Below, piece after piece: positions 2,214-18,637 of a DNA stretch of 40,097 nucleotides. How positions within the stretch are numbered: the stretch's first letter is position 1; the number at the start of each line of letters is the position of its first letter. This DNA comes from a virus: positions 1-40,097 of IMG/VR virus record IMGVR_UViG_3300037193_001806; one strand, given 5' to 3'. The notes beneath the pieces are model-generated. The model had not been told where the DNA came from and ran no database searches. It saw only the letters and a list, made by a program, of their open reading frames with translations. A program made the position numbers and the translations under genes.

Positions 2214-2453
2214 ATGCGCGACTTCAACTTCCGCACGGAGGTCAAGGGATCGTGCTACACCTGCACGCACTTCGCCGGCCGCCTCGATCGCGGCTACTCG
2301 CTGTGCGCGCGTGACCCGCGGCCGCATGTGCAGGCCGACCCGAAGACCGGCTGCGCCGAGCCTGGTTCTGACGACGAGCCGCCGCATCCGTGGCAGCCAG
2401 GCGATCCATCGCCGCCGCTGGAGATGCTGCCGCGGATGGGGAGGCTACGGTAG
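2214..2453 (+). CDS. Small Cys-containing phage protein
   Basis: A 79-residue protein with a CYTCTHF motif, then CARDP and GCAEP. The spacing of its four Cys suggests one zinc site. Similar short proteins occur near attachment sites and lysis genes of high-GC phages, but no function is known to me. The ATG at 2214 is chosen because the conserved-looking part begins there; in-frame codons upstream run back toward attP. Its end overlaps the convergent spanin gene by 9 bp. Confidence 0.6.
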   Translation: MRDFNFRTEVKGSCYTCTHFAGRLDRGYSLCARDPRPHVQADPKTGCAEPGSDDEPPHPWQPGDPSPPLEMLPRMGRLR

Positions 2454-2978
2454 GGACGGTGAGCCCGTCAGCGCGTCATAGGCCCGCTCGCAGGCCGCCC
2501 CGGCGGCTCGGGCCCGGTCTGCATAGGCAGCCAAGACGCCCGCGCGCTCGTCAGCGCGGCTAAGCACGTCGGCAAGCACTCCGATGGGATCTCCGGCTGG
2601 CGGGCCTCCGGCGGTAGAGGCGGCACGCGCGGCTGCAACGGTGGCGGCGAGACGCTGCTGCAGCTCGTCGCGAGCGCGGACAGCAGCCACGCGATCAGCC
2701 TCGATGCGGGCGCGGCTCTGGTTGGCATAGCGGGTCACCTCCTGTAGCGCCTCGACGCGGCGCGTGTTCTCGGCTTCGGTGTCGGCCCGGGTTCGCTCCA
2801 CCTGGGCCTGCAGTTCAGCCAGATCGGTGCGCTTCTCGGCGAGCGCAGTACGGGCGGTGTGCGCGTTCCAATGGCCCCAGCCGGCCACGGCCGCGACGCC
2901 GGCCAGCAGCCAGGCCGCGGTGGGAATTCCCGCAACGGCCCCCAGGGCGCGCGCGGCGATGCCCGTGACCAGCTTCAC
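2445..2978 (-). CDS. Rz-like spanin (DUF2514-type lysis protein)
   Basis: A 177-residue protein with an N-terminal membrane anchor (AGIPTAAWLLAGVAAVAGW, ~10-30), a long charged coiled coil (~35-110: AEKRTDLAELQAQVERTRAD and onward) and a C-terminal helical region (VLSRADERAGVLAAYADRA). This is the architecture of inner-membrane spanins that bring the inner and outer membranes together at the last step of lysis. GTG start overlapping the holin stop as GTGA. No separate or embedded Rz1 lipoprotein was identified with confidence. Confidence 0.8.
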   Translation of the reverse strand: MKLVTGIAARALGAVAGIPTAAWLLAGVAAVAGWGHWNAHTARTALAEKRTDLAELQAQVERTRADTEAENTRRVEALQEVTRYANQSRARIEADRVAAVRARDELQQRLAATVAAARAASTAGGPPAGDPIGVLADVLSRADERAGVLAAYADRARAAGAACERAYDALTGSPSLP

Positions 2979-3370
2979 GGCCTGATGCCCCGGCGCGCCT
3001 CTTCGAAGACCTCGCCCAGGTCCCGGTCGCGCCGCCGCTCCATCCAGTTGAACCCCCAGCGCACCACCGCCCACGCCGGCAGGCCGCAGGCGAACACGAG
3101 GCCCAGCACCGCCAGCAGCCCGGGCAGCGTGTCCATCCAGGCCTGCAGGCCCCAGTGCTGGATCGCCGCGGCCCCGCCCCCGATGCTGCCCACCACGGTG
3201 CTGATGAGCGCCACCGCCCATTCCCGCGGGCTGCGCGGCGGCGTCATGCACATCACCACCACGGCTGCCAGGGCAGCCCCCAGCCCGTAGGCGCCCACCG
3301 CCCCGCTCAGGAGCTTCGCCCCCGCGGCCACGCCGGATGCGGCGGTCTCTGCTGGCATGCTGTTCTCCAT
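2975..3370 (-). CDS. Putative holin
   Basis: A 131-residue protein with three hydrophobic segments (~25-42 GAYGLGAALAAVVVMCM, ~50-70 WAVALISTVVGSIGGGAAA, ~82-105 LPGLLAVLGLVFACGLPAWAV) and a charged C-terminal tail (MERRRDRDLGEVFEEARRG). Size, topology and position just before the spanin fit a pore-forming holin that times lysis. It follows the tail fibre gene by 3 bp. The normal place for an endolysin, between holin and spanin, is absent because these two genes overlap. Confidence 0.75.
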   Translation of the reverse strand: MENSMPAETAASGVAAGAKLLSGAVGAYGLGAALAAVVVMCMTPPRSPREWAVALISTVVGSIGGGAAAIQHWGLQAWMDTLPGLLAVLGLVFACGLPAWAVVRWGFNWMERRRDRDLGEVFEEARRGIRP

Positions 3371-3373
3371 GGC

Positions 3374-4390
3374 TCAATTCCCGAAGGCGATCCAGTTGAA
3401 TGACGACGCATCGGAGTCGTTATTGATCTTGAATGACGCCGCAGTGAATGTGTGGGCGTTGAATGAGTAACTGGCGCCACTGTCAACACTGTTATCGGTG
3501 TATGGATTGACGAAAACGCTGAAGCAGTTATTCGGGAACGCCGTAGGAAATGTCACTGTATTGCCCGCGGTGTCCAAGCCGAAGGGCCCGGCCGCGCCAA
3601 TCTTGACAATCAGTCCGCCGGGTATCGTGAATGACCCGTTCGCAGCAACAGTGCCGATCAATGAGTATTGCGGAGACGACACGACCCAATCCGCGCCGTC
3701 GTAAACGATTGCGGTGCACTGGCCCGAGGCAATCTTTGCGGCGACCTTGATGCCGTTTTCGAGTTGCTTCAATGTCGTGGCCGCAAGCCCAGACACCGCA
3801 ATCGTCGGCGCCGCCCCTCCCGCGGTGTGGAAGATGACGTAGCGCATTGCGCCGGTTGTCAGCGCCGCAAGCGCCACGGTCGGCGTCAGCGTGAATGCAT
3901 CAGCGGTGCCGGATGACAGGGTTGCCGATGACTGATCCTCGATCAGCCCGGTGACGGTGGCCGCGGACGCCGCAATGAGCGCGTTCACCTGCTGCAGCGG
4001 CACCGGGTGCAGGTTCTCGGTGGCGCCGCCGGAGAGCGAGAACTGCCCCGTCATCTCGACGCCCCCCTCCAGCGGCACGAACTCATCGTCGCTCGCCTCC
4101 GGCACGCCGGCCACGTCGTCCCACTGCTGGCCGTCCACCGGCGCGTCGTCGGGGTCGTGCAGCGCCAGGGTGTATTCGCCCGTGCCCAGCCACATCGTGC
4201 AGCGGCCGTCGGCATCCAGCTCGATGGGGTTCTCGTTCGCCACCGTGCCGGCCTGGTTGCTGAAGGTCTGCTTGGGCGTGACGGTGCCGCTGTCGTAGGT
4301 GTGGAGCAGGTAGCCGGCGGCCGGCACGAGCTGGCCGTCGGCGTTGGTGATGCGGAACTGCTGGTCAACGAAGGGGGGGCGGGTGGCCAT
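3374..4390 (-). CDS. Tail fibre / receptor-binding protein with gp53-like C-terminus
   Basis: A 338-residue protein. The N-terminal ~100 residues (DQQFRITNADGQLVPAAG ... NENPIELDADGRCTMWLG) match the virion-attachment domain often found on podoviral tail fibres. The centre is Ala/Thr-rich and probably trimeric. The last ~85 residues (VTFPTAFPNNCFSVFVNP ... FNWIAFGN) are of the gp53-like fibre-tip type that contacts the host surface. The DNA for this tip (about 3375-3700) is clearly less GC-rich than its neighbours, consistent with exchange of the receptor-binding end between phages. Confidence 0.85.
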   Translation of the reverse strand: MATRPPFVDQQFRITNADGQLVPAAGYLLHTYDSGTVTPKQTFSNQAGTVANENPIELDADGRCTMWLGTGEYTLALHDPDDAPVDGQQWDDVAGVPEASDDEFVPLEGGVEMTGQFSLSGGATENLHPVPLQQVNALIAASAATVTGLIEDQSSATLSSGTADAFTLTPTVALAALTTGAMRYVIFHTAGGAAPTIAVSGLAATTLKQLENGIKVAAKIASGQCTAIVYDGADWVVSSPQYSLIGTVAANGSFTIPGGLIVKIGAAGPFGLDTAGNTVTFPTAFPNNCFSVFVNPYTDNSVDSGASYSFNAHTFTAASFKINNDSDASSFNWIAFGN

Positions 4391-4437
4391 GGCGTAGGAT
4401 GCTTGGTATGTCGTTCGATCCGATCTTTCTCGGCTGG

Positions 4438-6678
4438 CTAGTTGCCTCGCTCATCCTGTCGCTGCTCTCCGGAGGCGGCAAGGATGGCAAGTAGCTGGCT
4501 CACCGACGGCTGCTTCGCCTGCGCCTGACCGTTGGCAATGAGCGTCAGCGCTTCGCTGGGCGTGAGCACCTTGGTTTGCTGCCGGCCCTGGATCGCGCCC
4601 TTGATGATGTCGCGCCCGCCGAGCGGCACGTAGTTGGCCAGCCGCTCAAGCACTTCCAGCCCGCGGCCTAGCACCAGGGCGCCGCTGTTGCTGTTGTTGA
4701 CGGCCGATCCAGCTGGCTGAGCCTGCATGTACTTGCCGGCATCGCCGATCGCCCTGAGCTGCGCGACCTGATCGCGGTCGAAGAACACGGAAAGCTTCTC
4801 GTCGCCGATGTCGCGCAGCGCCCGGCGGTATGCATCATTCGAGAACTTCGTGATGTCGTCGGTGCTGTTTGTCGCGGCGTCGCGCAGGTGGCGCACGATG
4901 TACTGCCGCAGGGCCTCGCTTGCCCGCGGCTCCAGCTCGCCGGCCAGGGCGCGCACGTCGGCCGCGGTCGCGCTCTTGCCGACCAGGAACCGCTGCACGA
5001 ACTGGTCCGGCTCGACGCCTTCAGCCACCGCGCGCAGAGCTGGGTTGCCCTCCAGGCGCTGCATCCATTCCCGGTTCGTGCGCCGCGCCGCATTGAAGGC
5101 GTCGATGCTCTCCTGTCCGGCAATCGTCGGCGACGGTGGCACGGTGCCCGACACGGCCGGCAGGTTGCGGGGATTCAGGTTGGGGTTCTGCAGAGGCGCC
5201 TCGTCCAGGGCCTGACGCACCAGGCCCAGGGCCATGCGGGCCGTGCCATCGTTGGATGCCCGCTGCAGCTTGCCGATGCGCGTCTTGAGTTGCTCGGCAA
5301 TCTCCACCGTGAATGGCATCTCGCCCTTGGCGATGCGGTTCATGGTGTTCGCCACGTCGGCCGGCAGGGCACCCCCAACCATCTCCTGGTCCAGCAGCTC
5401 ATTGGCACGCCGGGTGAATGCGCCGCCCTCCAGGGGCAGGCTGCGGCCGGATGTGTCGCGCGCCGCGGCGTAGAGGCGGTCGATCCTGGCCTGCTCGCGC
5501 GCCACTGTCCCATCCAGGGAGTTGATGGCGGCGCGCGCCGCGCCCTGGGCATTCGGCGCATTGGCCGCACCGGCCTGGTCAAGCTGGCGAAGCAGCTGGG
5601 CGATGTTGCTGTTCTGCAGGGCCGGCAGGCGCTGCAGGTTGGGGTCCATGCTGTTGGCCCCGGTCTTCGCCAGGTTCATCTCGCGCGTGATCTGCCCCGG
5701 GTCCTGCGTCAGCATGCCCACGGTCGGCGTGGTGCCAGTCTGCCGGAACGCGACCAAGCGCCGCAGGGCATCCGGGTTGAGCGGCTGACCTCCGGCAAGC
5801 GCCTGCGCCACCTCGTCGCGCAGGCCGGCCTTGATCTGGTCCGGCACCCTGCTCCAGTCCAGCCCGGAGCGCTGCAGTGCCAGCTCGATCTGCTGATCTG
5901 CGGCGCGAATGATCTCGGTTCGGGGCGTCAGCAGCGAGCGAAGACGCTGATAGGCGGACCCGGCCAGGTTGTTGGCTGCACTGGTGGTGCCGCCCCCGGC
6001 CACGCCAGCCACCAGCGCCGCGGCGAACTGCTCAAGCGGGCCGCCGCCGGCCTCGCGCACAGCCCCACCAGACCCGCCCGCGGCGGCTGCACCGACGGCC
6101 TGCGTACCGGGATTGGCGGCCATGGCGGCCGGCGCCGACTTGGCGGCCTGGGCGGCATTGCGAGCCCAGTTCGTGACGGCGCTGCCGCTGGTTTGCGCCG
6201 CCCCGACGGCGGGCGCGCCAACTGCGCGGGCCAGTGAGCCGGCGGCGCCGCCCATTGCGCCAGCGGATGCGACCGTGCGGGCCGCATCGCCGATCACCCG
6301 TTCGTTGGCATCACGCGGCTGCGGTAGCCCCGCCTTGGTCGCCAGGTCCGTCGCCATGCCCTGCACAGTGGATGAAGCCTCCGGCAGGCCCATCGCGCGC
6401 AGGGCCGGGTTCACGACGATCTGACGCAGCGGCTCCACGCCGATGTCTGCCAGGCCTCCGACAGCCTCCAGGCCGTAGCGCGCCGTCAGCCCGACCTGCC
6501 GCGGGATCTCGCGCAACGTGGCGCCCACGCTCTCGGCCGCCGATGGCTTCGGCGCCTCGTCCAGCCACTCGCTTGGCACCGCCATGCCGTTCGCCTTCAG
6601 CTTGGCGGCCAAGTCGGCCTTGGTGGTGCCATCGGGCACGCCCTTGATGATCGTTCCATCCGGGAGGCGAACGTCCAT
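4438..6678 (-). CDS. Large DNA-ejection (internal virion) protein
   Basis: A 746-residue protein. The first ~45 residues (MDVRLPDGTIIKGVPDGTT) form a small motif shared by several phage internal proteins. An Ala/Gly-rich, membrane-like stretch follows at ~135-255, then long helical segments to the C-terminus. By position (last of three ejection-type genes, after the tail accessory genes) and composition it is the counterpart of the P22 gp16/gp20-type proteins that leave the virion with the DNA and form a conduit through the envelope. No lytic transglycosylase motif was seen. Its ATG overlaps the previous stop (TAATG). Confidence 0.75.
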   Translation of the reverse strand: MDVRLPDGTIIKGVPDGTTKADLAAKLKANGMAVPSEWLDEAPKPSAAESVGATLREIPRQVGLTARYGLEAVGGLADIGVEPLRQIVVNPALRAMGLPEASSTVQGMATDLATKAGLPQPRDANERVIGDAARTVASAGAMGGAAGSLARAVGAPAVGAAQTSGSAVTNWARNAAQAAKSAPAAMAANPGTQAVGAAAAGGSGGAVREAGGGPLEQFAAALVAGVAGGGTTSAANNLAGSAYQRLRSLLTPRTEIIRAADQQIELALQRSGLDWSRVPDQIKAGLRDEVAQALAGGQPLNPDALRRLVAFRQTGTTPTVGMLTQDPGQITREMNLAKTGANSMDPNLQRLPALQNSNIAQLLRQLDQAGAANAPNAQGAARAAINSLDGTVAREQARIDRLYAAARDTSGRSLPLEGGAFTRRANELLDQEMVGGALPADVANTMNRIAKGEMPFTVEIAEQLKTRIGKLQRASNDGTARMALGLVRQALDEAPLQNPNLNPRNLPAVSGTVPPSPTIAGQESIDAFNAARRTNREWMQRLEGNPALRAVAEGVEPDQFVQRFLVGKSATAADVRALAGELEPRASEALRQYIVRHLRDAATNSTDDITKFSNDAYRRALRDIGDEKLSVFFDRDQVAQLRAIGDAGKYMQAQPAGSAVNNSNSGALVLGRGLEVLERLANYVPLGGRDIIKGAIQGRQQTKVLTPSEALTLIANGQAQAKQPSVSQLLAILAASGEQRQDERGN

Positions 6679-8627: not shown

Positions 8628-8954
8628 TCAGCCTCCCTGTGCGATCAGTTGATGGTCCACCTGCTCGGGGTTCGTGCAGTCGGTGGCGTGCACGCAGTAC
8701 CACGTCACGTCGGTGATGGCGGTCACCGAGTGGGTCTTGCCGGCCTCGATGACGATGCAGGCCGGGCCCTGCAGCGTGCGGCGCCGGCCCTCCACCTCCA
8801 CCACCGCGGTGCCGCTGGCCAGCAGCGAGAGGTGGTCGTGCTGGTGGCGGTGCTGCTGGAGCACCACCCCGGCCGGGATGGCGGTCTCCTTGGCGTAGAC
8901 GCCCCCGCCGAAGTGGTGGACGATACCCACGCCAAGCTGCTCGAAAGTCACCAT
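8628..8954 (-). CDS. Small cupin-fold protein
   Basis: A 108-residue single-domain cupin. It shows VVLQQHRHQHDHLSLLASG (metal-binding His cluster of cupin motif 1), then VEVEGRRRTLQGPACIVIEAG and the second motif around GKTHSVTAITDVTWYCVH. Such cupins recur in late operons of podoviruses of Pseudomonas, Xanthomonas and relatives; their task is unknown. The start at 8954 is preferred over one 24 nt upstream because GGGGTGAG stands just before it. A 16-bp palindrome shared with two other late genes lies 14 nt upstream. Confidence 0.8.
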   Translation of the reverse strand: MVTFEQLGVGIVHHFGGGVYAKETAIPAGVVLQQHRHQHDHLSLLASGTAVVEVEGRRRTLQGPACIVIEAGKTHSVTAITDVTWYCVHATDCTNPEQVDHQLIAQGG

Positions 8955-8968
8955 GCTCACCCCTGAAT

Positions 8969-8984
8969 GTGAGCGCATGCTAAC
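8969..8984. promoter_or_regulatory. Late-operon 16-bp palindrome, copy 1
   Basis: GTGAGCGCATGCTAAC. It has the form GTKAG-N6-CTMAC with a core of alternating purines and pyrimidines, and lies 14 nt upstream of the cupin start. Copies 2 and 3 are at 16390 and 18648. Confidence 0.55.
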
Positions 8985-8988
8985 TCAA

Positions 8989-9327
8989 TCAGCCTGTGAT
9001 TTCGCGGCCCGACATGCGGAACACGAGGGCCGTGGCAGTCCCGGCAATCGCGCTCACGAAGTCGCCCGGCTGCAGCACGTGGCCCACCAGCGCGGCGCAC
9101 AGGTCAACGGTGCCGGCGGCCACCGTGATGGACAGCACCAGGTTCGAGGCGCCGGCCGAGCCGCCGCTGGCCACCACGTTGACGTCGCAGGTGACCGGCG
9201 ACCCGGTGTCGTTGGTCGCGGTCGCCTTGTCGATGATCGTGCGCGTGCCGGTGGGTGCGGTGTACTGGGTGGTCTGGCTGGTCTCGATGTACTTCGCTTC
9301 CACCAGGCACTTGGCTGTGACGGTCAT
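8989..9327 (-). CDS. Small virion-associated protein, unknown
   Basis: A 112-residue protein rich in Thr, Val and Ala (AKCLVEAKYIETSQTTQYTAPTG near the start) with a predicted all-beta pattern. It starts at an ATGA overlap with the previous gene. Position among tail accessory and ejection genes suggests a minor virion or decoration protein. I recognise it as a recurrent podoviral hypothetical without a known role. Confidence 0.7.
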   Translation of the reverse strand: MTVTAKCLVEAKYIETSQTTQYTAPTGTRTIIDKATATNDTGSPVTCDVNVVASGGSAGASNLVLSITVAAGTVDLCAALVGHVLQPGDFVSAIAGTATALVFRMSGREITG

Positions 9328-9734
9328 GATTGCAATCCCTGTTTCAATGCTTCGATCTCGCGCTCCAGCTCGATGACGCGGGCCACCAGCGCCGAGACAA
9401 CACCGTCTTCGCGCTCCTCGGTCACGCTGGGCATGGGTGGCGGCGCCTGGTCATCGGCCGCCGGCAGGAGCGTGACGGCCACCGGCTGCTGCAGGAGGGC
9501 CTGCAGGAGGGCCCGCATGTCGGCCGTCGATTCGATGGCTGGCACCACCACGGGCGCCTGCTCGTCGACCTGCACCACGGTCGTGGTGTTCGTGATGTTG
9601 GTGACGTTGGTCACCGGCGCCGCCTCGGCCGTGCCCGCGAACAGCTCGCTGATGGGCCGCACCCAGTCGTGGGCCAGCAGGCCCGTGCGCGGGTCGACCA
9701 GCGGCACCCGGCTGGGATTGGGCATCGTCGCCAT
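9324..9734 (-). CDS. Tail-region protein with C-terminal coiled coil
   Basis: A 136-residue protein. The N-terminus (VPLVDPRTGLLAHDWVRPI) is a motif common to short phage proteins that precede fibres and ejection proteins. A low-complexity Thr/Val region follows (VTNVTNITNTTTVVQV), and a C-terminal helix (VSALVARVIELEREIEALK) predicts a coiled coil, probably trimeric. It starts one base inside the gp10-type stop codon (TGATG). Confidence 0.7.
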   Translation of the reverse strand: MATMPNPSRVPLVDPRTGLLAHDWVRPISELFAGTAEAAPVTNVTNITNTTTVVQVDEQAPVVVPAIESTADMRALLQALLQQPVAVTLLPAADDQAPPPMPSVTEEREDGVVSALVARVIELEREIEALKQGLQS

Positions 9735-10927
9735 CAGGCCATCTCCACGTCGGCAGAAATCGGGTTGAAGGGGGCGTCATCGGTCATGCGGACCTGCAGC
9801 ACGCGGTCATAGGCGCTGCCCAGGCGGTTGAAGCGCACGCGCCGGGCGTACTGGCCGATGGCGCCGGCCGACTCGACGCGCCAGCCCGACCAGGTGGCGC
9901 CGTTGTCGTCGCTCCAGCGGAGCATCACCTGGCCACCGGCGCCCTTCTCGCACACCAGCTCCATGCCCGGGAAGCGCACCCGGCGGCGGCCCGGGTGCGA
10001 GATCACGGGCGCGATGCGGTCGCGGCACAGCGTGCTGCCGGCGATGGTGTGCACCGTCGGGTCCATGCGATAGAGGTTGCCGTCGTTGTCGCCGATCCAG
10101 TGCTTGCCGTAGGCGAAGGCGTGGCAGCGGGCCCGCCACTGCCGGTAGTTGCCCTTGACCAGCTCGGCCCGCTCGTGCCACTGCTGGAACCGGAGGTCGT
10201 AGACCAGCGTGGTATCCACGCCTGGCACGTTGAGGCAGTAGAAGGTCTGGCCGCCGTCGCTGTAGGCGAAGGCCCGGGCCTGGGCGAGGTCGCGGCCCTC
10301 GAAGCGCTCTTCGATTGCACGCGTGCTCACGCGCTGGCCGCGGCCGGCCAGCACCAGGGCCTGGCCCGCCTTGTCCCGGCCGAGCCACATCGGCGTATCG
10401 CCTGCCATCTGGGCGCCGTGGGCTGCCGCACTGCCGTACTGCAAGAATTCGGAATCCGCCCGCTGGAACACGGCCGTGCCGCCCACGCTGTACCAGACCT
10501 CGCCAGTGGTCTCGCCCAGCAGCAGCAGCTCGCGATCCGACGACAGGATGCTCACCAGGTTGTCCGGCGAGCCCTCGGCGCTGGCGAAGCCGAGCGCCGC
10601 CACGCTCTTGGCATTGCCCAGGGCCGTCCAGGCGAAGCGCTGGCTGTTGGCCTGGATGCCGATGATCCGCTGGTCCAGGAACGCGATGCGGGCGCCCGGC
10701 GTCCAGTTGGCCACCGTCTCAATCGTGGTGCCGTCGTAGACGTAGAGCGCCGTGCCGTCGGTGATGCACAGCTGTGTGAGGTTGGCGGCCATGTCCACCG
10801 GGCCGCCCAGGCTCCCGATGGTGCCCCGCGATGTGTAGGCGCCGGCACCGTCCAGGCTATAGAGCGTGTCGCCGCGCACGGCGTGGAGCACGCCGCGGAA
10901 GGTGAAGAGGCCGCGGAGCTGGGTCAT
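9734..10927 (-). CDS. gp10-type packaged-DNA stabilisation protein, main (C-terminal) part
   Basis: A 397-residue protein matching the Phage_stabilise family (P22 gp10, tail hub that plugs the portal). Visible landmarks are [49 protein letters not shown] and [20 protein letters not shown]. Family members begin with a ~50-residue IPF-GPSY...PGL segment that is missing here but is found at the start of the gene at 12233. The frame reads Gly-Gly-Gly immediately before the ATG, and those bases (GGAGGTGGC) also form a strong ribosome site. The gene is therefore the downstream half of a split gp10, translationally coupled to the gene before it. Confidence 0.85.
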
Positions 10928-11565
10928 GCCACCTCCGCGAACACCGGAAAGGCCTCATGCCCGCGCCATGGGTCCACCCACCGGGAGATGAGCTTGCGCG
11001 CGACATCGACCTGGCCGTGCCATGCGGCGCCAGCATTGCACGTGATCTGGCCGGAGTGCTGCCGCCACGCATACCCGATCATCGGCACCTGCACCGCCCC
11101 ATGCACGAGGGCGAGGTATGCCCTGACGATCCAGTCGACGTGCAGCAGGCCGCGCTCCGCGATCTCGTCCAGCAGAGCCCGAGGCAGCAGGTCGGTCCGC
11201 AGCACCGAAAGGTGGTGGATGGAGTCCGGCGTGCTGGCGGCCATGCGCCTCGTGACCGGCTCGCGCCGCTCGCGCAGGATGCTGCCGTCGGGGCCCACGT
11301 AGCGCTGCCAGGTGAACGCAATGCCGGCACCGGTGGCCACCAGGGCCTCCTCGCAGGCCTGCAGGGCGCCGGGCATCACGATGTCGTCATCGTCCACGTT
11401 GGCCATGGTCTCGCCCTGCGAGTAGCACCACAGGCGCGACCCGACGTAGCCGAGCTGGTCCAGCAGCACCACGTGCCGCGCCTGGCCTCGCACGGACGCG
11501 CAGCACTGACCGAACCATTGGCCGGGCACCCGGTCGGCACGCGTCAGCGTGAATACCGTCACCAT
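10924..11565 (-). CDS. GT2-like glycosyltransferase inserted within gp10
   Basis: A 213-residue protein with a GT-A nucleotide-sugar-binding pattern: an N-terminal beta strand (VTVFTLTRADR), an Asp-rich metal site in MANVDDDDIVMPGAL (~54-68) and a late DW-R-YLAL...YAWRQHSGQI segment that resembles the acceptor end of family-2 enzymes. It is short for the family and lacks membrane helices. It lies between the two halves of gp10 and overlaps the second as ATGA. It may modify host surface glycans or a virion protein; substrate unknown. GC content is close to that of the surrounding late genes. Confidence 0.65.
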   Translation of the reverse strand: MVTVFTLTRADRVPGQWFGQCCASVRGQARHVVLLDQLGYVGSRLWCYSQGETMANVDDDDIVMPGALQACEEALVATGAGIAFTWQRYVGPDGSILRERREPVTRRMAASTPDSIHHLSVLRTDLLPRALLDEIAERGLLHVDWIVRAYLALVHGAVQVPMIGYAWRQHSGQITCNAGAAWHGQVDVARKLISRWVDPWRGHEAFPVFAEVA

Positions 11566-11567
11566 GA

Positions 11568-12233
11568 TTACGGTGGCGTGTAAATCGAATCGCCAGATCG
11601 GCGGACGACCACCACCATGTCGGCGCTAAACGTCGGTTCAGCCGCTTCGGCAAGGGCGAACATTTGCGGGTAGAACTCGACGGGCGCCTGATATACGTTC
11701 AGGACGAATTGAGTGGTTTGGCATATCCTGCCCTCGTCCACGAAGGGTATGGCGTCCCCGCCGATGTTGATTTCGCGAGCGCCACTTGCGTATACCTCAA
11801 AGGCCAGGCTATACGCATCCGCGGCAATGTCGGTAGCGACCTTAACCGCGTCCGTTTCCATCTTCGTCGATTCAAATACGTAATTCACCGTCACTTCATA
11901 TGTGCCGGTATCTGATATTCGAATCTTTCCCGCCCCCATGTGCTCCGCGTAATCACTTTCGGTGAGCGGTCTGGCGGTTGTGAAGTTCGCCCCCGTCAAG
12001 GTGCCGGCGTTGAAATTCCTATCGGTAGCTCGTAGAAACGCAATTACCAGCACGTCCGGCTCTCCCTCTGCAAAGTCCTGAATGAGCACCAGCCCGGGCG
12101 CATCCTTGAACACCCACGCCGTGCGCTCGTTCCCGGGCTCCTGGGGAACCGGGATCATGTTGATCGTCCTCTGCACCGAGGCCGGGCGGCTGGTGAGCTG
12201 GTAGGACGGCCCGACGAATGGGATGTCCGCCAC
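11568..12233 (-). CDS. gp10 N-terminal segment fused to a beta-rich (C1q-like?) domain
   Basis: A 221-residue protein with a GTG start. Residues 1-54 (ADIPFVGPSYQLTSRPASVQ ... DAPGLVLIQDF) are the characteristic N-terminus of gp10-type stabilisation proteins. After that the sequence changes character: about 160 residues rich in Thr/Val/Glu (FNAGTLTGANFTTARPL, KIRISDTGTYEVTVNYVF, EFYPQMFALAEAAEPTFS, MVVVVRRSG) that read like a jelly-roll of the C1q/TNF type, often used for receptor binding. The DNA for this part (about 11570-12060) is distinctly less GC-rich. The remainder of gp10 restarts at 10927. The fold call is inference. Confidence 0.7.
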   Translation of the reverse strand: MADIPFVGPSYQLTSRPASVQRTINMIPVPQEPGNERTAWVFKDAPGLVLIQDFAEGEPDVLVIAFLRATDRNFNAGTLTGANFTTARPLTESDYAEHMGAGKIRISDTGTYEVTVNYVFESTKMETDAVKVATDIAADAYSLAFEVYASGAREINIGGDAIPFVDEGRICQTTQFVLNVYQAPVEFYPQMFALAEAAEPTFSADMVVVVRRSGDSIYTPP

Positions 12234-12235
12234 GG

Positions 12236-12937
12236 TCAGCCCTCGAGGAAGCGCTCCAGGTGGCTGCGCCCATCGCAGCCGCCCACGTCGAGCTGCGGCA
12301 CGACGACGTTCACCCGCTTGATGTTGCGGCGGGCCATGGCGGCATTGCGCGCCACCGTGGGCGGCACCTCGCGCTCGTAGCTGGCGGCCACCTCTTCGGC
12401 CAGGCTGAACACCAGGGCCCGCTCGTAGCCGGGCGGCAGGGTGTACTGCTGGGTGAGCGACGCGAATGACGAAATCCGCTGCTGCACCACCAGGCTCAGC
12501 GCCACGGACGCCGCAGCGCGCAGGTGGAAGTGCAGCACACCGTTCGGCAGGGTCGGGTTGTAGAACACCCAGCGCGGCCCCAGCGAGCTGACCGCCTTGA
12601 GGCCGATGCTGTTGAACTCGGCCTCGTTGATCGTGTCGAGCGGATAGTCGATGCCGCCGACACTGAAGAAGCAGCCATCCTCCAGCCGCACGGGCCGGGG
12701 CGTGGCCACGAGCTGGCCAGTGGGGCCGATGGTGCGCGTCTGCGTGTTCGCCGGCAGCGTGCCGGTGATCGTCTGCGTGGCGTAGGCGTAAAGGTTCTCA
12801 ACGGCCCAGCCGTCCAGCATCGTGTTCAGCGCGATGAGGCAATCCGCAGCGTCGCCAGGCTTCACGGTTTGCCCAAGCGCGACGATGCCCAGGTGGCCCA
12901 GGGCCCGGCGGATGATGCTGTTGGCGGTGGTGGTCAC
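12236..12937 (-). CDS. P22 gp4-type tail accessory factor
   Basis: A 233-residue head-to-tail connector protein. ANSIIRRALGHLGIVALG and DCLIALNTMLDGWAVENL at the N-terminus, and LPPGYERALVFSLAEEVAASYE later, are typical of the gp4 tail accessory family that binds the portal ring after DNA packaging and receives gp10. GTG start. It stands directly upstream of the gp10-type gene (2-bp gap), the order seen in P22-like phages. Confidence 0.85.
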   Translation of the reverse strand: MTTTANSIIRRALGHLGIVALGQTVKPGDAADCLIALNTMLDGWAVENLYAYATQTITGTLPANTQTRTIGPTGQLVATPRPVRLEDGCFFSVGGIDYPLDTINEAEFNSIGLKAVSSLGPRWVFYNPTLPNGVLHFHLRAAASVALSLVVQQRISSFASLTQQYTLPPGYERALVFSLAEEVAASYEREVPPTVARNAAMARRNIKRVNVVVPQLDVGGCDGRSHLERFLEG

Positions 12938-12943
12938 TCGCCG

Positions 12944-13201
12944 TCACGCCTTCGCGGGCGCCTGTTCCGCTTTGGCCGGCTTCCGTTCCGCCTTCGCGGG
13001 CGCCTGTTCCGGCTGGCGTGCCGCGAACACCGGAATCTCGGGCGCCGTCGGCTTGGGTGCCGGGGGTGGCCACGAGCCCGCCGCCTTCTCGGCGCGGGAG
13101 CGCGGGAAGCGCGTCCAGCCGGCGGCCACCAGCCGCTCCACCTGGTCGGCCGGCACGTGCTGGCCGCCGTGCTCTGGGTGTTTCACGTAGACGAGGGTCA
13201 T
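12944..13201 (-). CDS. Small protein with Ala/Lys/Pro repeat tail
   Basis: An 85-residue protein. The N-terminus (VYVKHPEHGGQHVPADQVER) is a compact domain seen in short phage head-region proteins. The C-terminal third is low complexity, with two copies of an APAKAE-type 14-residue repeat encoded by a 23-bp DNA repeat. It overlaps the upstream gene as ATGA. Function unknown; possibly a head-tail assembly helper. Confidence 0.7.
   Translation of the reverse strand: MTLVYVKHPEHGGQHVPADQVERLVAAGWTRFPRSRAEKAAGSWPPPAPKPTAPEIPVFAARQPEQAPAKAERKPAKAEQAPAKA
12947..13011. repeat. 23-bp direct repeat, 42-bp period
   Basis: Identical 23-bp copies at 12947-12969 and 12989-13011. They lie in the 3' end of the preceding coding region and keep frame (42 bp = 14 codons), so copy-number change by slippage would lengthen or shorten the Ala/Lys/Pro tail without a frameshift. 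Confidence 0.9.
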
Positions 13202-14280: not shown

Positions 14281-15504
14281 TCAGGCGTTGGCCGCGCCGA
14301 TGATGCGGCTGGCCCACTGGGGCCGCATGGCCGCCATCCCGTACAGGATGTCCCCCCGCATCAGCAGCTCGTCGTTGCGGATGTCCGAGGCCAGCCAGAT
14401 CCGCATGCTGAGGCCGTCTTTGACCTTGCGCACGCACTTCTGGGCGTCGTCCAGGATCGGCAGGTCGGCCGTGATGAACTGGAACGCCTCGCTGTGGTAC
14501 ATGAGTTGCTGCACGTAGTTCGTGCTTGCGCTGCCCACGAAGGTGATGTCCGCGTTGTCCACCGGCGTGCCGCTGCAGTTCTGCCGCGGGTTGGTGGTGT
14601 CGAAGATCATCGCCGGGCTGAAGCTGATGCTGGTCGTCGTGGCGCTGGTCACCACAAACTGCTTCAGGTGCGCGTACGCCTGCTTCGTCTCCGGGTGCAC
14701 GTCATACATGTTCTCCACCGTGAACACCATGCCCTCGACGGGCGCCGCAGTGAATCCGTCCACCGTCAGCGACGTGATGCCGCTGGTCAGCGTGCCGCCG
14801 TTGATCTCGCCCGCCACATCGGCGCTGTTGGGCAGCACCCACATGCGATCGTTCTCGTACCAGTCGGCCATGGCGGTACGACCCATCATGCCCTCCCGGT
14901 ACTGCTCCTTGATCTGGCTGGAATCCTGGAACAGGCCCTTGAGGCCGTTGACGATCTTGCCCATGGCGGGCGAATCGCACTGGATGTAGCGCCTACCATC
15001 CTTCGGGGCGAGTTGCTGGTTGAGCTTCGCCCGCGCCTGCCCCACAACGTCCAGGTCTGTCATGGCCGTGCCTGGCGTGCCCACGGTGTGGTAGGTCGCC
15101 TTGGTGCAGAACGCAATGAAATCGGCCTCGATGCCGGACAGGCAGGCCATCACGGCCGGCTCGATGTAGTTCTTCGACAGCTCATCGAAGGCCCCGTCGC
15201 TGTCAACTGACTGGATCAGCTCCTGGCTGTTGAAGCGCATGTCGAAGCCGTCCTGGGTGGCGACGGTGATGGTCTGCGACACCTCGCTTTGCTCCTGCAC
15301 GTCCATGACGCGCGAGCCGCGGCGGCGCTTGTACATGTTCGGCTCTTTGACCCGCAGCGTCTGCCCGTGCGGGCCGCGGCGCGGGTCATAGGTGAACGAC
15401 TTGTCCCACTGGCGATCCACCGTCCCGATGAATGCCAGCCTCTCGTGCGCGATGCGCAGTGATTCCTCGGCCACCATATTGGTGACCTCGAAGATGTTTG
15501 CCAC
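14281..15504 (-). CDS. Major capsid protein, P22 coat (gp5) type
   Basis: A 407-residue coat protein of the P22 family (HK97 fold with an inserted domain). Landmarks are an N-terminal helix (VTNMVAEESLRIAHERLAF), RRGSRVMDVQEQSEVSQTI, QDGFDMRFNSQEL, and a C-terminal RIWLASDIRNDELLMRGDIL that is typical of the family. GTG start, supported by AGGGAG 7 nt upstream. It follows the scaffold gene as usual. The product builds the icosahedral shell. Confidence 0.9.
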   Translation of the reverse strand: MANIFEVTNMVAEESLRIAHERLAFIGTVDRQWDKSFTYDPRRGPHGQTLRVKEPNMYKRRRGSRVMDVQEQSEVSQTITVATQDGFDMRFNSQELIQSVDSDGAFDELSKNYIEPAVMACLSGIEADFIAFCTKATYHTVGTPGTAMTDLDVVGQARAKLNQQLAPKDGRRYIQCDSPAMGKIVNGLKGLFQDSSQIKEQYREGMMGRTAMADWYENDRMWVLPNSADVAGEINGGTLTSGITSLTVDGFTAAPVEGMVFTVENMYDVHPETKQAYAHLKQFVVTSATTTSISFSPAMIFDTTNPRQNCSGTPVDNADITFVGSASTNYVQQLMYHSEAFQFITADLPILDDAQKCVRKVKDGLSMRIWLASDIRNDELLMRGDILYGMAAMRPQWASRIIGAANA

Positions 15505-15516
15505 GATGGCTCCCTG

Positions 15517-16350
15517 TTACCTGCCGCGGGCCGCGATCTGCTCGCGCCTGCGCTTGATGAAAGCGTCCCCGGAGAGTTCTTTCAGCGCGGGCGTGGATGA
15601 GGCCTTTGGCTTGACTGCATTGAGAGGGGTCGGCGCTTTGCTGACCCCCTTGGCGTCCTGCTTCAGCTGGTCTTCCAGCTTGGCCAGGCGCCGCCCGAGT
15701 TGCGCAGGAGACAGGCCATTGAGTGCCGCAGCCTCTTCCGGGTTGTTGCCCAGGTGGTGCATCAGGCGGGCGGGGTCGTCGCACTCCAGCACGGCCTCGA
15801 GGAATGGCGTGGGTCGCCGTTCTCCATCCACCAGCCGAACCTCATCGCCGAGTGCGTCCATGGCCTCGCGGAAGCCATCCAGCTTGGCGCCGGCCTCGAA
15901 AGTCTTCTTGAGGCTGTTGGCGATGCTGGAGCTCCGCACCATGTCCCGGGCGCGCTCATTGGCAATGCGATCGATCTCTGCCTGCGAGAGCGCTTGAGGC
16001 TGCCGCTGCGCGGCCCTGTCGTCGCCCTGCGTTTCCCTGCCGCCCTCCAGCTGCTGCAGGCGCTCCCGAAGCTGTTGCACTTCGGTGCGGGCCAGTTCGG
16101 CCTCGCGTGCGCTGCCGCCGTTTCGTGCGGTCAGGTTTGCGATGCGCCGCTCCAGCTTGCGGATCGTCTTCTGCTCGGGGGTGAGCTTTTCGCCACCCTC
16201 CGCGCCCTGCGACTGATCGCCGGCCGGCTGCTGCTCATCGGTTTGCGGGCGAGCAAGGTCCGCGTGCTGCTGCTCAGGCACCGAAGTTTGGCCATCGCTG
16301 GCCGGGCCGGTCGGGGCGCCCTGGATCGTGGTGTCGGTAGAGGTGCTCAT
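15517..16350 (-). CDS. Capsid scaffolding protein
   Basis: A 277-residue, highly charged, Gln/Glu-rich helical protein (coiled coil at ~65-120: EQKTIRKLERRIANLTARNG) with a basic C-terminus (DAFIKRRREQIAARGR) like the coat-binding helix-turn-helix of scaffolds. It sits between portal and coat, the expected place, and would direct coat assembly and leave the procapsid. A 16-bp palindrome lies 39 nt before its start. Confidence 0.8.
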   Translation of the reverse strand: MSTSTDTTIQGAPTGPASDGQTSVPEQQHADLARPQTDEQQPAGDQSQGAEGGEKLTPEQKTIRKLERRIANLTARNGGSAREAELARTEVQQLRERLQQLEGGRETQGDDRAAQRQPQALSQAEIDRIANERARDMVRSSSIANSLKKTFEAGAKLDGFREAMDALGDEVRLVDGERRPTPFLEAVLECDDPARLMHHLGNNPEEAAALNGLSPAQLGRRLAKLEDQLKQDAKGVSKAPTPLNAVKPKASSTPALKELSGDAFIKRRREQIAARGR

Positions 16351-16432: not shown

Positions 16433-18637
16433 CTACAGAGGCTGCGGCTCGGCGTCCTGCTGGGCCGGCTGGGCCTGCCCGCCGAGGGCCGCGACGAGCT
16501 GCGAAAGCAGCGCCTCCATGCTGTCCTGCCGCTGCAGCAGTGCCCGCAATGCCGCGCCCGTGTCGGCCGCCGCGGGCCCGGACTCCGGGGCGGACTGCTG
16601 CGCCGGCCGGCCCGGGTGCTGCTCGTCGGCCTGCAGCGTCTGCGTGGTGGGCATGAGCGATCCCGCGGCCTTGATCCGCTCCGTCTCGGCGCGGTACCGG
16701 TCCGTGTCCTCGTTCGCCTCGTCGGCCTCCATCTCGGCCGCCAGGCGCGCGGTCTCCAGCCTGCGGTCGGCCTTGAGGCGATCCAGCTCGGCCTGCAGGC
16801 GCTGCAGCTCGGGCTCCGCGGCATCCAGCATCTGGGCCATCTGCTGCATTTGGGCCTGCATCTGGCGCATCTGGGCCTGCGCGCGCGGCGGGATGTCCTC
16901 CTCGTCGTCGCCCTGGCCTTCGTTGGCGATGGCCTGCACCTCGGGCGGCGCCATGGCCAGCAGCATGCGCGAGTAGCGCTCCGCGTCCGGCCAGTCCTGC
17001 AGCTTCATCAGCGCCGGCAGCAGCACAGGTGACGCCTGTGGAGCCGCCTGCAGGGCCGCCGTGAGGCCCTCTGCCGCCTCGGCGCGCTGCGTGACGTAGT
17101 TCGCCCCCGGCTTCACGCGCACGTCGTAGGCGCCCACGCTGGGGTTGATCGCCACGACCCGCTTGCCGCGCTTGGCCACCGCCTGCGGCATCGACGGATC
17201 GATGGTCACCTGGCTCTGCTGGCCGTCCAGGCCCAGGATCTTGGCCACGCGCTTGGTGTCGTAGATCGTCGGGATCATGCCGACGATGATCCGCGCCACG
17301 TGCTCGATGCTGCGGCCCTGGTTGTCGGCGAAATGGTACGTGGCGGTCGCGCCCTGCTCCTTGCGCTCACGCTCCTGCCGGCCGCTGGTGGCGTTGGTGG
17401 GCGCGCCCAGGTTCGAGCGGAACATGCCAATGGCGCCCTCCATGTCGGCGATCGCCATCTGGCCGCCCTGGGCGAAGGCTGCTGGGTACTGGGGCGGGGC
17501 CAGGCGCTGTGGCGCTGGGATCTGCTTGCCCTCGCCGTCAAGGCTGTTGTACGGCAGGTACGCCGGCTGGCCGGTGTTGAGCTTGCGCCAGTGCTCATCG
17601 TGGCCTTCCACGGCCTCCATGGGCACCAGCACCGGCGCCTTGGGCTGCATGGCAACCGCCTCGATGCCGGCGCACCGCTCGTAGTTGTAGGCCCGCTGGC
17701 CGGCCATCAGCGGCCGCACCAGGCCGCACAGGTAGCGCTTGCCCTCAATCCACTGCTCATAGCCGATCACGGGCACCATGCCAATGTAGCGACCAGGAAA
17801 GTCGGTTTCCTCCAGCAGTTCGTCGCCGTTGAACGTGCACCACTTCACGGTGCGCTCCACGGCCTGGAACTCGCGCAGGATCTGCGGCGGATAGCCGATC
17901 CGGCCGGCGAGGGCGTAGTAGCCCTCCTCGTCCAGCGTCATCTCGCCCCCCTCCGGCCCCTCCACCACCACCATGTTGCGCTTCGTCTCGACCACGTACT
18001 GGTGCTCGCACACGCGCACAGCATCCTGCGTGACCCACGTGCCGTCGCCGCTCCCCTCCCAAGACTGCTTGCTGGCCTTGGGGTACTCGCGCTCGAACTG
18101 CTTGCGCGGCACCATGGTCTCCGCGAAGCCGTTGAGCGCATCACTGCCATCCGGCTCGGTGCCGTCGATGACGATGCTCAGAGGGTCGGCCACGCGGTCG
18201 ATGCAGATTTCCTGCTGGTTCGTCTCGGGGTCGATGACGCGCGGCACAGGGCGGATCCAGCCCACGCCGCAGCGCGCAGCGCCGTCCAGCGCGGTGTCGT
18301 AGGCGATCTGGGCCCGGCTGCGGTACTCAATGTGGCGGATCATGCCGTCGTACTGCTGGGCCACCAGCACGTCGCCCCGGCTGTCCACCGGCATCGTGTT
18401 GATGCCCGGCTTGTTCTTGCGGCCGTCGTTGACTACCTGCACGATGTACTGGTTCGTGCGGTCGAACGCCTCGCACAGGCGCCCCTGGCGGGCCGTCAGC
18501 GCCTCTTGGCTCCACTGCTGCGGACTGGCCGGGTTCGAGAACCTCAGGTCCTCCAGCATGCGCCGGTGATTCTCGCGCCACGCCTCTTTCGTGTCGGCGT
18601 AGGTCTCTTTCGCGCGCTGCAGCTGGTCTTGTGGCAT
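16433..18637 (-). CDS. Portal protein, P22 gp1 type
   Basis: A 734-residue portal. The N-terminal part (AWRENHRRMLEDLRFSNP, PQQWSQEAL) and the core (NKPGINTMPVDSRGDVLVAQ, YDTALDGAARCGVGWIRPVP, GYEQWIEGKRYLCGLVRPL) match the P22 portal family, slightly longer than P22's ~725 residues. The C-terminal ~150 residues are Gln-rich coiled coil, like the barrel that reaches into the P22 head. It forms the DNA entry ring for the terminase and the attachment site for gp4. Confidence 0.9.
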   Translation of the reverse strand: MPQDQLQRAKETYADTKEAWRENHRRMLEDLRFSNPASPQQWSQEALTARQGRLCEAFDRTNQYIVQVVNDGRKNKPGINTMPVDSRGDVLVAQQYDGMIRHIEYRSRAQIAYDTALDGAARCGVGWIRPVPRVIDPETNQQEICIDRVADPLSIVIDGTEPDGSDALNGFAETMVPRKQFEREYPKASKQSWEGSGDGTWVTQDAVRVCEHQYVVETKRNMVVVEGPEGGEMTLDEEGYYALAGRIGYPPQILREFQAVERTVKWCTFNGDELLEETDFPGRYIGMVPVIGYEQWIEGKRYLCGLVRPLMAGQRAYNYERCAGIEAVAMQPKAPVLVPMEAVEGHDEHWRKLNTGQPAYLPYNSLDGEGKQIPAPQRLAPPQYPAAFAQGGQMAIADMEGAIGMFRSNLGAPTNATSGRQERERKEQGATATYHFADNQGRSIEHVARIIVGMIPTIYDTKRVAKILGLDGQQSQVTIDPSMPQAVAKRGKRVVAINPSVGAYDVRVKPGANYVTQRAEAAEGLTAALQAAPQASPVLLPALMKLQDWPDAERYSRMLLAMAPPEVQAIANEGQGDDEEDIPPRAQAQMRQMQAQMQQMAQMLDAAEPELQRLQAELDRLKADRRLETARLAAEMEADEANEDTDRYRAETERIKAAGSLMPTTQTLQADEQHPGRPAQQSAPESGPAAADTGAALRALLQRQDSMEALLSQLVAALGGQAQPAQQDAEPQPL

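Follow-up and report, generated by a model that had tools for sequence, protein, structure and literature searches.

A gp10-type tail plug protein encoded as two chains around a variable slot in uncultured phages

Introduction

Short-tailed phages dock their fibres on an intact hub via separate anchors. Here we describe a locus at which the DNA-plug tail protein gp10 (P22-gp10/Hc3 family, phrog_578) is encoded as two chains. It lies in a stretch of viral DNA of 40,097 nucleotides, positions 1 to 40,097 of the IMG/VR virus record IMGVR_UViG_3300037193_001806, which is referred to as the window in its full length. Among nozzles of known structure, that of T7 has 45 N-terminal residues that add three strands to a platform barrel built mostly by the C-terminus (PMC6702177). 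In T7 and SU10, the platform touches the adaptor, and the boundary corresponding to the cut described here is the one between platform and propeller, close to the position where the fibres dock (PMC6702177; PMC9509320).

Results

Two open reading frames (ORFs) on the minus strand of the window cover the whole phrog_578 profile. The N-terminal piece, N54 (12072–12233, GTG start), which would contribute the platform strands and serve as anchor module, comprises the first 54 residues of an open 221-residue ORF (11568–12233). Residues 1–57 of this ORF match phrog_578 positions 3–58 (E 5e-5), which bears out the homology to gp10 that a preceding sequence-only reading of the window had assumed for them. 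The remainder, gp10C (9734–10927, ATG at 10927, 397 amino acids), matches positions 60–469 (E 2.6e-80). Because the matches run from 3 to 58 and then from 60 to 469, the two pieces abut without loss of residues, and the cut is found where single-chain gp10 continues from PGL to IRG. The one polypeptide of phrog_578 is thus represented by two ORFs in the window, and the same applies to the other split contigs described below. Among PDB sequences, gp10C has relatives via profile A1 (9vyg_M, E 5.5e-31; 7eeq_1, E 2.2e-25), and no credible match was found for N54. In the 40-kb record, N-piece and gp10C each occur once; neither a second gp10 nor a second N-piece was found in it, and no full-length gp10 is present in any split record, including those of 35–58 kb, which may, however, be incomplete. 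With the family profile covered by both ORFs and all frames open, the division of gp10 into two intact chains is well supported, and our confidence in it is high. A published split of gp10, of a nozzle or of tail tubular protein B was not found in the literature searched, the coverage of which was incomplete, and to this extent the split has no prior description.

Scans of viral contigs with gp10C and with the N-piece revealed 17 further uncultured contigs with gp10 cut at the same point, giving a split set of 18 contigs including the window (L-numbers denote loci or contigs of the comparison set). The split, initially described in one genome, is therefore real in the window but not a single event. 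Both pieces are present in 16 of the 18 contigs, while L089 and L100 end before gp10C, which in the split contigs starts 2–5 residues ahead of an RG motif or at the RG itself. Phage collections, which contain mainly cultured phages, did not show the split; among isolate or complete-genome phage records, the twelve that were read have a single-chain gp10 by annotation, and a scan of genome contigs of 84,980 species detected no relatives of gp10C and N54.

N54 of the window is 58–75% identical to other clade-I N-pieces. Third-position changes dominate between N-pieces (13/6/33 for the window versus L002a), and the rate of non-synonymous substitution (dN) is lower than that of synonymous substitution (dS) wherever computable (a rough estimate from about 50 codons), indicating that the N-pieces are under purifying selection. 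Considering that 17 other contigs have the identical architecture, with open frames and signs of purifying selection, gene decay or misassembly is highly improbable even for records from uncultured metagenomes, and for the class as a whole misassembly and chance are excluded by the shared cut. A rejoining of the pieces at the RNA or protein level into an ordinary gp10, by an intron, an intein or trans-splicing, would agree with the absence of residue loss at the cut. However, gp10C has a start codon of its own, in several frames, the insert of each contig contains unrelated tail genes, and the gap in L097 is just 53 bp. As an Rfam intron search of window positions 9000–13000 also gave no hit, there is no known intron at the locus, and we give rejoining hardly any weight.

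On a tree of gp10C, the split state requires four changes, three of which are forced by well-supported branches. A single split clade was rejected by the approximately unbiased (AU) test (p-AU 4.3e-6, and 7.8e-4 when the distant L081 is left out), indicating repeated gain, or repeated reversal, of the cut. The change counts on this tree do not separate gain from loss: the cut either originated repeatedly at one position, or it is old and was reverted in lineages such as L024/L096.

The slot between the two pieces is occupied in the window by an orphan cargo domain fused to N54 and by a glycosyltransferase (GT)-like gene. L005 and L091 have a LamG-like domain and a GT-like gene different from that of the window, L004 has a LamG-like domain and fibre genes, L110 and L112 have DUF11-type domains, and L081 has a domain that is propeller-like by eye. 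In L002, L003, L094 and partly L100, a repeat domain is followed by the tail-fibre families phrog_4176 and phrog_4950, so that fibre families come next in the cassette of these relatives. In other contigs, this repeat domain forms the C-terminus of tail proteins from other phages (phrog_1082 in L187, phrog_4271 in L202), again with phrog_4176 and phrog_4950 genes behind it, so that N54 of the split podophages occupies the place that another tail anchor has elsewhere. Proteins of this fibre cassette had no match among PDB sequences; the baseplate of JBD30 was considered as a model for it and dropped, the JBD30 paper showing no link.

Between L005 and L091, the GT-like gene is 84% identical, as against 62% for N54, 41% for the LamG cargo, 40% for gp10C and 26% for gp4. 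L002 and L003 share 75% identity in gp10C and 29–43% in the cassette. For L110 and L112, identity is 57% at the start of the cargo and 37% in N54, and the repeat cassette of L100 sits on an N54 of another lineage. By these comparisons, cassettes have been exchanged independently of gp10. A conserved N-terminal anchor is followed by a variable, exchanged C-terminal part, which is the build of an anchor-type receptor-binding protein.

Altogether 25 N-piece copies were recognized, 9 of them bare (3–30 residues beyond N54) and 16 cargo-bearing (124–398 residues). Two N-pieces are present in seven contigs, and each of the seven combines one bare copy with one cargo copy, an outcome with a likelihood of about 0.4% if the copies were dealt at random, bearing in mind that the contigs are not independent. 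No extra N-piece was found at the single-chain gp10 loci of the set. In L029, L069 and L112, the bare copy directly precedes gp10C without an insert and the cargo copy is located upstream; such a cut without insert would be understandable if the same six sites were contested between bare and cargo pieces. In bare N-pieces, the sequence tends to close with a short tail of 20–30 residues resembling LLxEDGxxLLxE (L069:1644–1886, L112:3676–3918, L029:5739–5960, L004:2694–2939).

These data also bear on the possibility that the split is neutral, with the chains assembling as before and unrelated accessory genes settling in the gap without being displayed. The coincidence of the cut with a structural boundary, the presence of only a bare N-piece in L097 and L099, and the occurrence of accessory genes beside gp4 and gp10 also in single-chain phages are in line with such a scenario. 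The in-frame fusion of cargo to 16 of the N-pieces, the restriction of N54 duplication to split loci and the repeated occurrence of tail-fibre or lectin-like content in the slot argue against it, and we regard a neutral split as unlikely.

A second cut site was observed in L192, a 35-kb contig in which gp10 is interrupted near its C-terminus (2376–5726). Residues 1–400 of gp10 are fused there to the repeat domain, followed by phrog_4176 and then by phrog_4950, to which the final ~70 residues of gp10 are fused. The position of this cut, ~69 residues from the C-terminus, is similar to the place of the SU10 dock loop (Trp839–857 in a chain of ~910 residues) by count rather than by alignment. Possibly, as this second site hints, the entire platform domain acts as a socket. 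The family phrog_19101 (595 positions, function unknown) matches residues 322–384 of the window's gp10C and the second L192 piece. Its last ~70 positions correspond to the gp10 C-terminus, and other gp10 genes with a cut at this C-terminal site may be among its members.

The predicted fold of the single-chain gp10 of L024 (predicted local distance difference test, pLDDT, 90) matches P22 gp10 (8u10, 8eap; template modelling (TM) score 0.83), as well as Pan3, Pam1 and Sf6 gp8 and, more distantly, the SU10 and T7 nozzles. The gp10 fold of platform and propeller is thus documented through this single-chain relative and not through the two chains of the window. On the L024 model, the cut is positioned in the loop between strands 46–52 and 57–63, and from the model and by analogy with the known nozzles this domain boundary would be expected on the outside, near the level of fibre docking. 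Given the contact between platform and adaptor in T7 and SU10, N54 might also have been released from gp10 to anchor fibres elsewhere, e.g. on gp4, with gp10C working without it, and the conservation of N54 beside the very different gp4 proteins of L005 and L091 would be compatible with this. Nevertheless, in each split contig that is long enough to tell, one N54 or more has stayed directly with gp10C, and the profile match of the N-piece extends exactly to the beginning of gp10C, which makes a relocated N54 improbable, more so than a neutral split.

Re-reading of the window sequence and its ORFs reproduced the initially reported coordinates and junctions of the split gp10 exactly. N54 and gp10C are ~1.14 kb apart, a distance filled by 167 in-frame cargo residues plus stop (11568–12071, minus strand) and a 213-residue ORF, the GT-like gene (10924–11565, minus strand). 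The successive junctions are a 2-bp gap after gp4, a 2-bp gap (TAA-TC-ATG) and an ATGA overlap. The inserted domain is indeed lower in guanine-cytosine (GC) content, with 56% in the open frame of the cargo compared to 66% in N54 and 70% in both the GT-like gene and gp10C. A ribosome-site-like stretch precedes the start of gp10C (GGAGGTGGC, 10928–10936, minus strand), and its reading as Gly-Gly-Gly had been taken as a relic of former coding sequence. We rejected this idea: the stretch belongs to the final codons of the ORF upstream, and the bases at this place are unrelated in other split loci. The GT-like gene matches phrog_19440 (E 1.3e-8, function unknown) and phrog_14775 (glycosyltransferase, E 0.009); it had no relatives in viral contigs and two weak matches in phage records.

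Directly upstream of N54, a gp4-type head-tail adaptor gene (12236–12937, minus strand) matches phrog_637 (head-tail adaptor Ad3, E 5.6e-9) and phrog_12985 (E 1.6e-41). With portal (16433–18637), scaffold (15517–16350), coat (14281–15504), this adaptor and gp10, the gene order is that of P22 gp10/Hc3. The window additionally encodes a fibre-like protein with a gp53-like C-terminal tail-fibre domain (3374–4390) and a tail fibre adhesin-like protein of 116 amino acids (8628–8978). One phage ORF (37034–38644) combines an RdgC domain (residues 109–400) with an FtsK gamma domain (428–488) and has ~108 additional N-terminal residues. Elsewhere in the comparison set, a 2-kb ORF annotated as 'DNA repair protein' lies between the tail adaptor and the single-chain gp10 of L012 (L012:803–2842, MW202573.1), another insertion at the same gene border. 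In L008 (L008:1147–2827, MW202691.1), a 426-residue 'polysaccharide biosynthesis' ORF precedes a tail accessory factor (gp4) of just 138 amino acids, and gp4 may be split there in a similar way.

Discussion

The best explanation for these observations, and in our view probably the correct one, is that N54 serves to complete gp10 in trans and to display a replaceable host-recognition cargo on the tail hub. N54 would bind the 397-residue chain and fill in the gp10 platform just where a single chain would pass into propeller blade 1. On the outside of the hub, the free C-terminus of N54 would carry an exchangeable domain for host recognition, in most cases accompanied by partner genes of the cassette, and in contigs with two copies, bare and cargo N-pieces would share the six hub sites. 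We infer complementation in trans, outward display, host recognition and shared occupancy from position, from the family content of relatives and from the known nozzle structures. Display at the tail hub, which had already been proposed from the sequence, is backed by the published nozzle structures and by the tail-fibre genes that relatives have in this slot.

Several observations weigh against this explanation. All split contigs are uncultured, and the bare N-pieces demonstrate that cargo is not always present. The cargo of the window is the weakest point, as we read its role from position only: no relatives of the N54-cargo protein were found in phage records or viral contigs, and the AlphaFold 2 (AF2) model of the 221-residue protein (pLDDT 40) was unusable. 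The label of the second gene as glycosyltransferase-like has a weak match to Pfam GT2 behind it (E 0.004, 55 residues), but its 17.5 bits are below the cut-off of 23.3. No similarity was detected to the 174-residue GT-like gene of L091, and a common family of the two was dropped as an idea. Moreover, the cargo need not be a receptor binder, since the window has the two other fibre-like genes mentioned above.

More tentatively, the locus could represent a natural split-protein display system, in which the plug was cut several times at one boundary, a ~54-residue piece works as plug-in tag, bare and cargo copies are mixed on six hub sites, cassettes are exchanged with other tailed phages, and L192 exemplifies a second cut. 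If the plug piece is indeed an anchor supplied in trans, sometimes twice, host recognition would be physically coupled to the gate that retains the genome, and a six-fold hub could be decorated with two kinds of subunit. An essential plug would seemingly have been turned into a socket for host-recognition parts, and the two pieces would constitute a small natural two-part tag that is testable with purified proteins.

P22 gp10, Sf6 gp8 and the stabilisation protein of Pan3 and Pam1 (phrog_578) share with the locus described here the sequence of both pieces, the order after gp4 and, through the single-chain relative, the fold. They consist of one chain, whereas here there are two, with an N-piece that carries cargo and is sometimes duplicated. 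The T7 gp12 and SU10 nozzles likewise have a propeller and a platform, N-terminal strands in the platform and fibres docking at this level (PMC6702177; PMC9509320), but they are single chains, and their fibres are separate proteins on dock domains or loops. The tail-fibre cassette of phrog_4176 and phrog_4950, known from Pseudomonas, Xanthomonas and Stenotrophomonas phages, fills the same slot in L002, L003 and L094; it is not present in the window, the cargo of which was unrelated to it in the searches made. Modular receptor-binding proteins such as Klebsiella phage tailspikes similarly combine a short conserved N-terminal anchor with an exchangeable C-terminal domain (PMC8262889; PMC12692247). 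In contrast to these proteins, the plug protein itself provides the anchor here.
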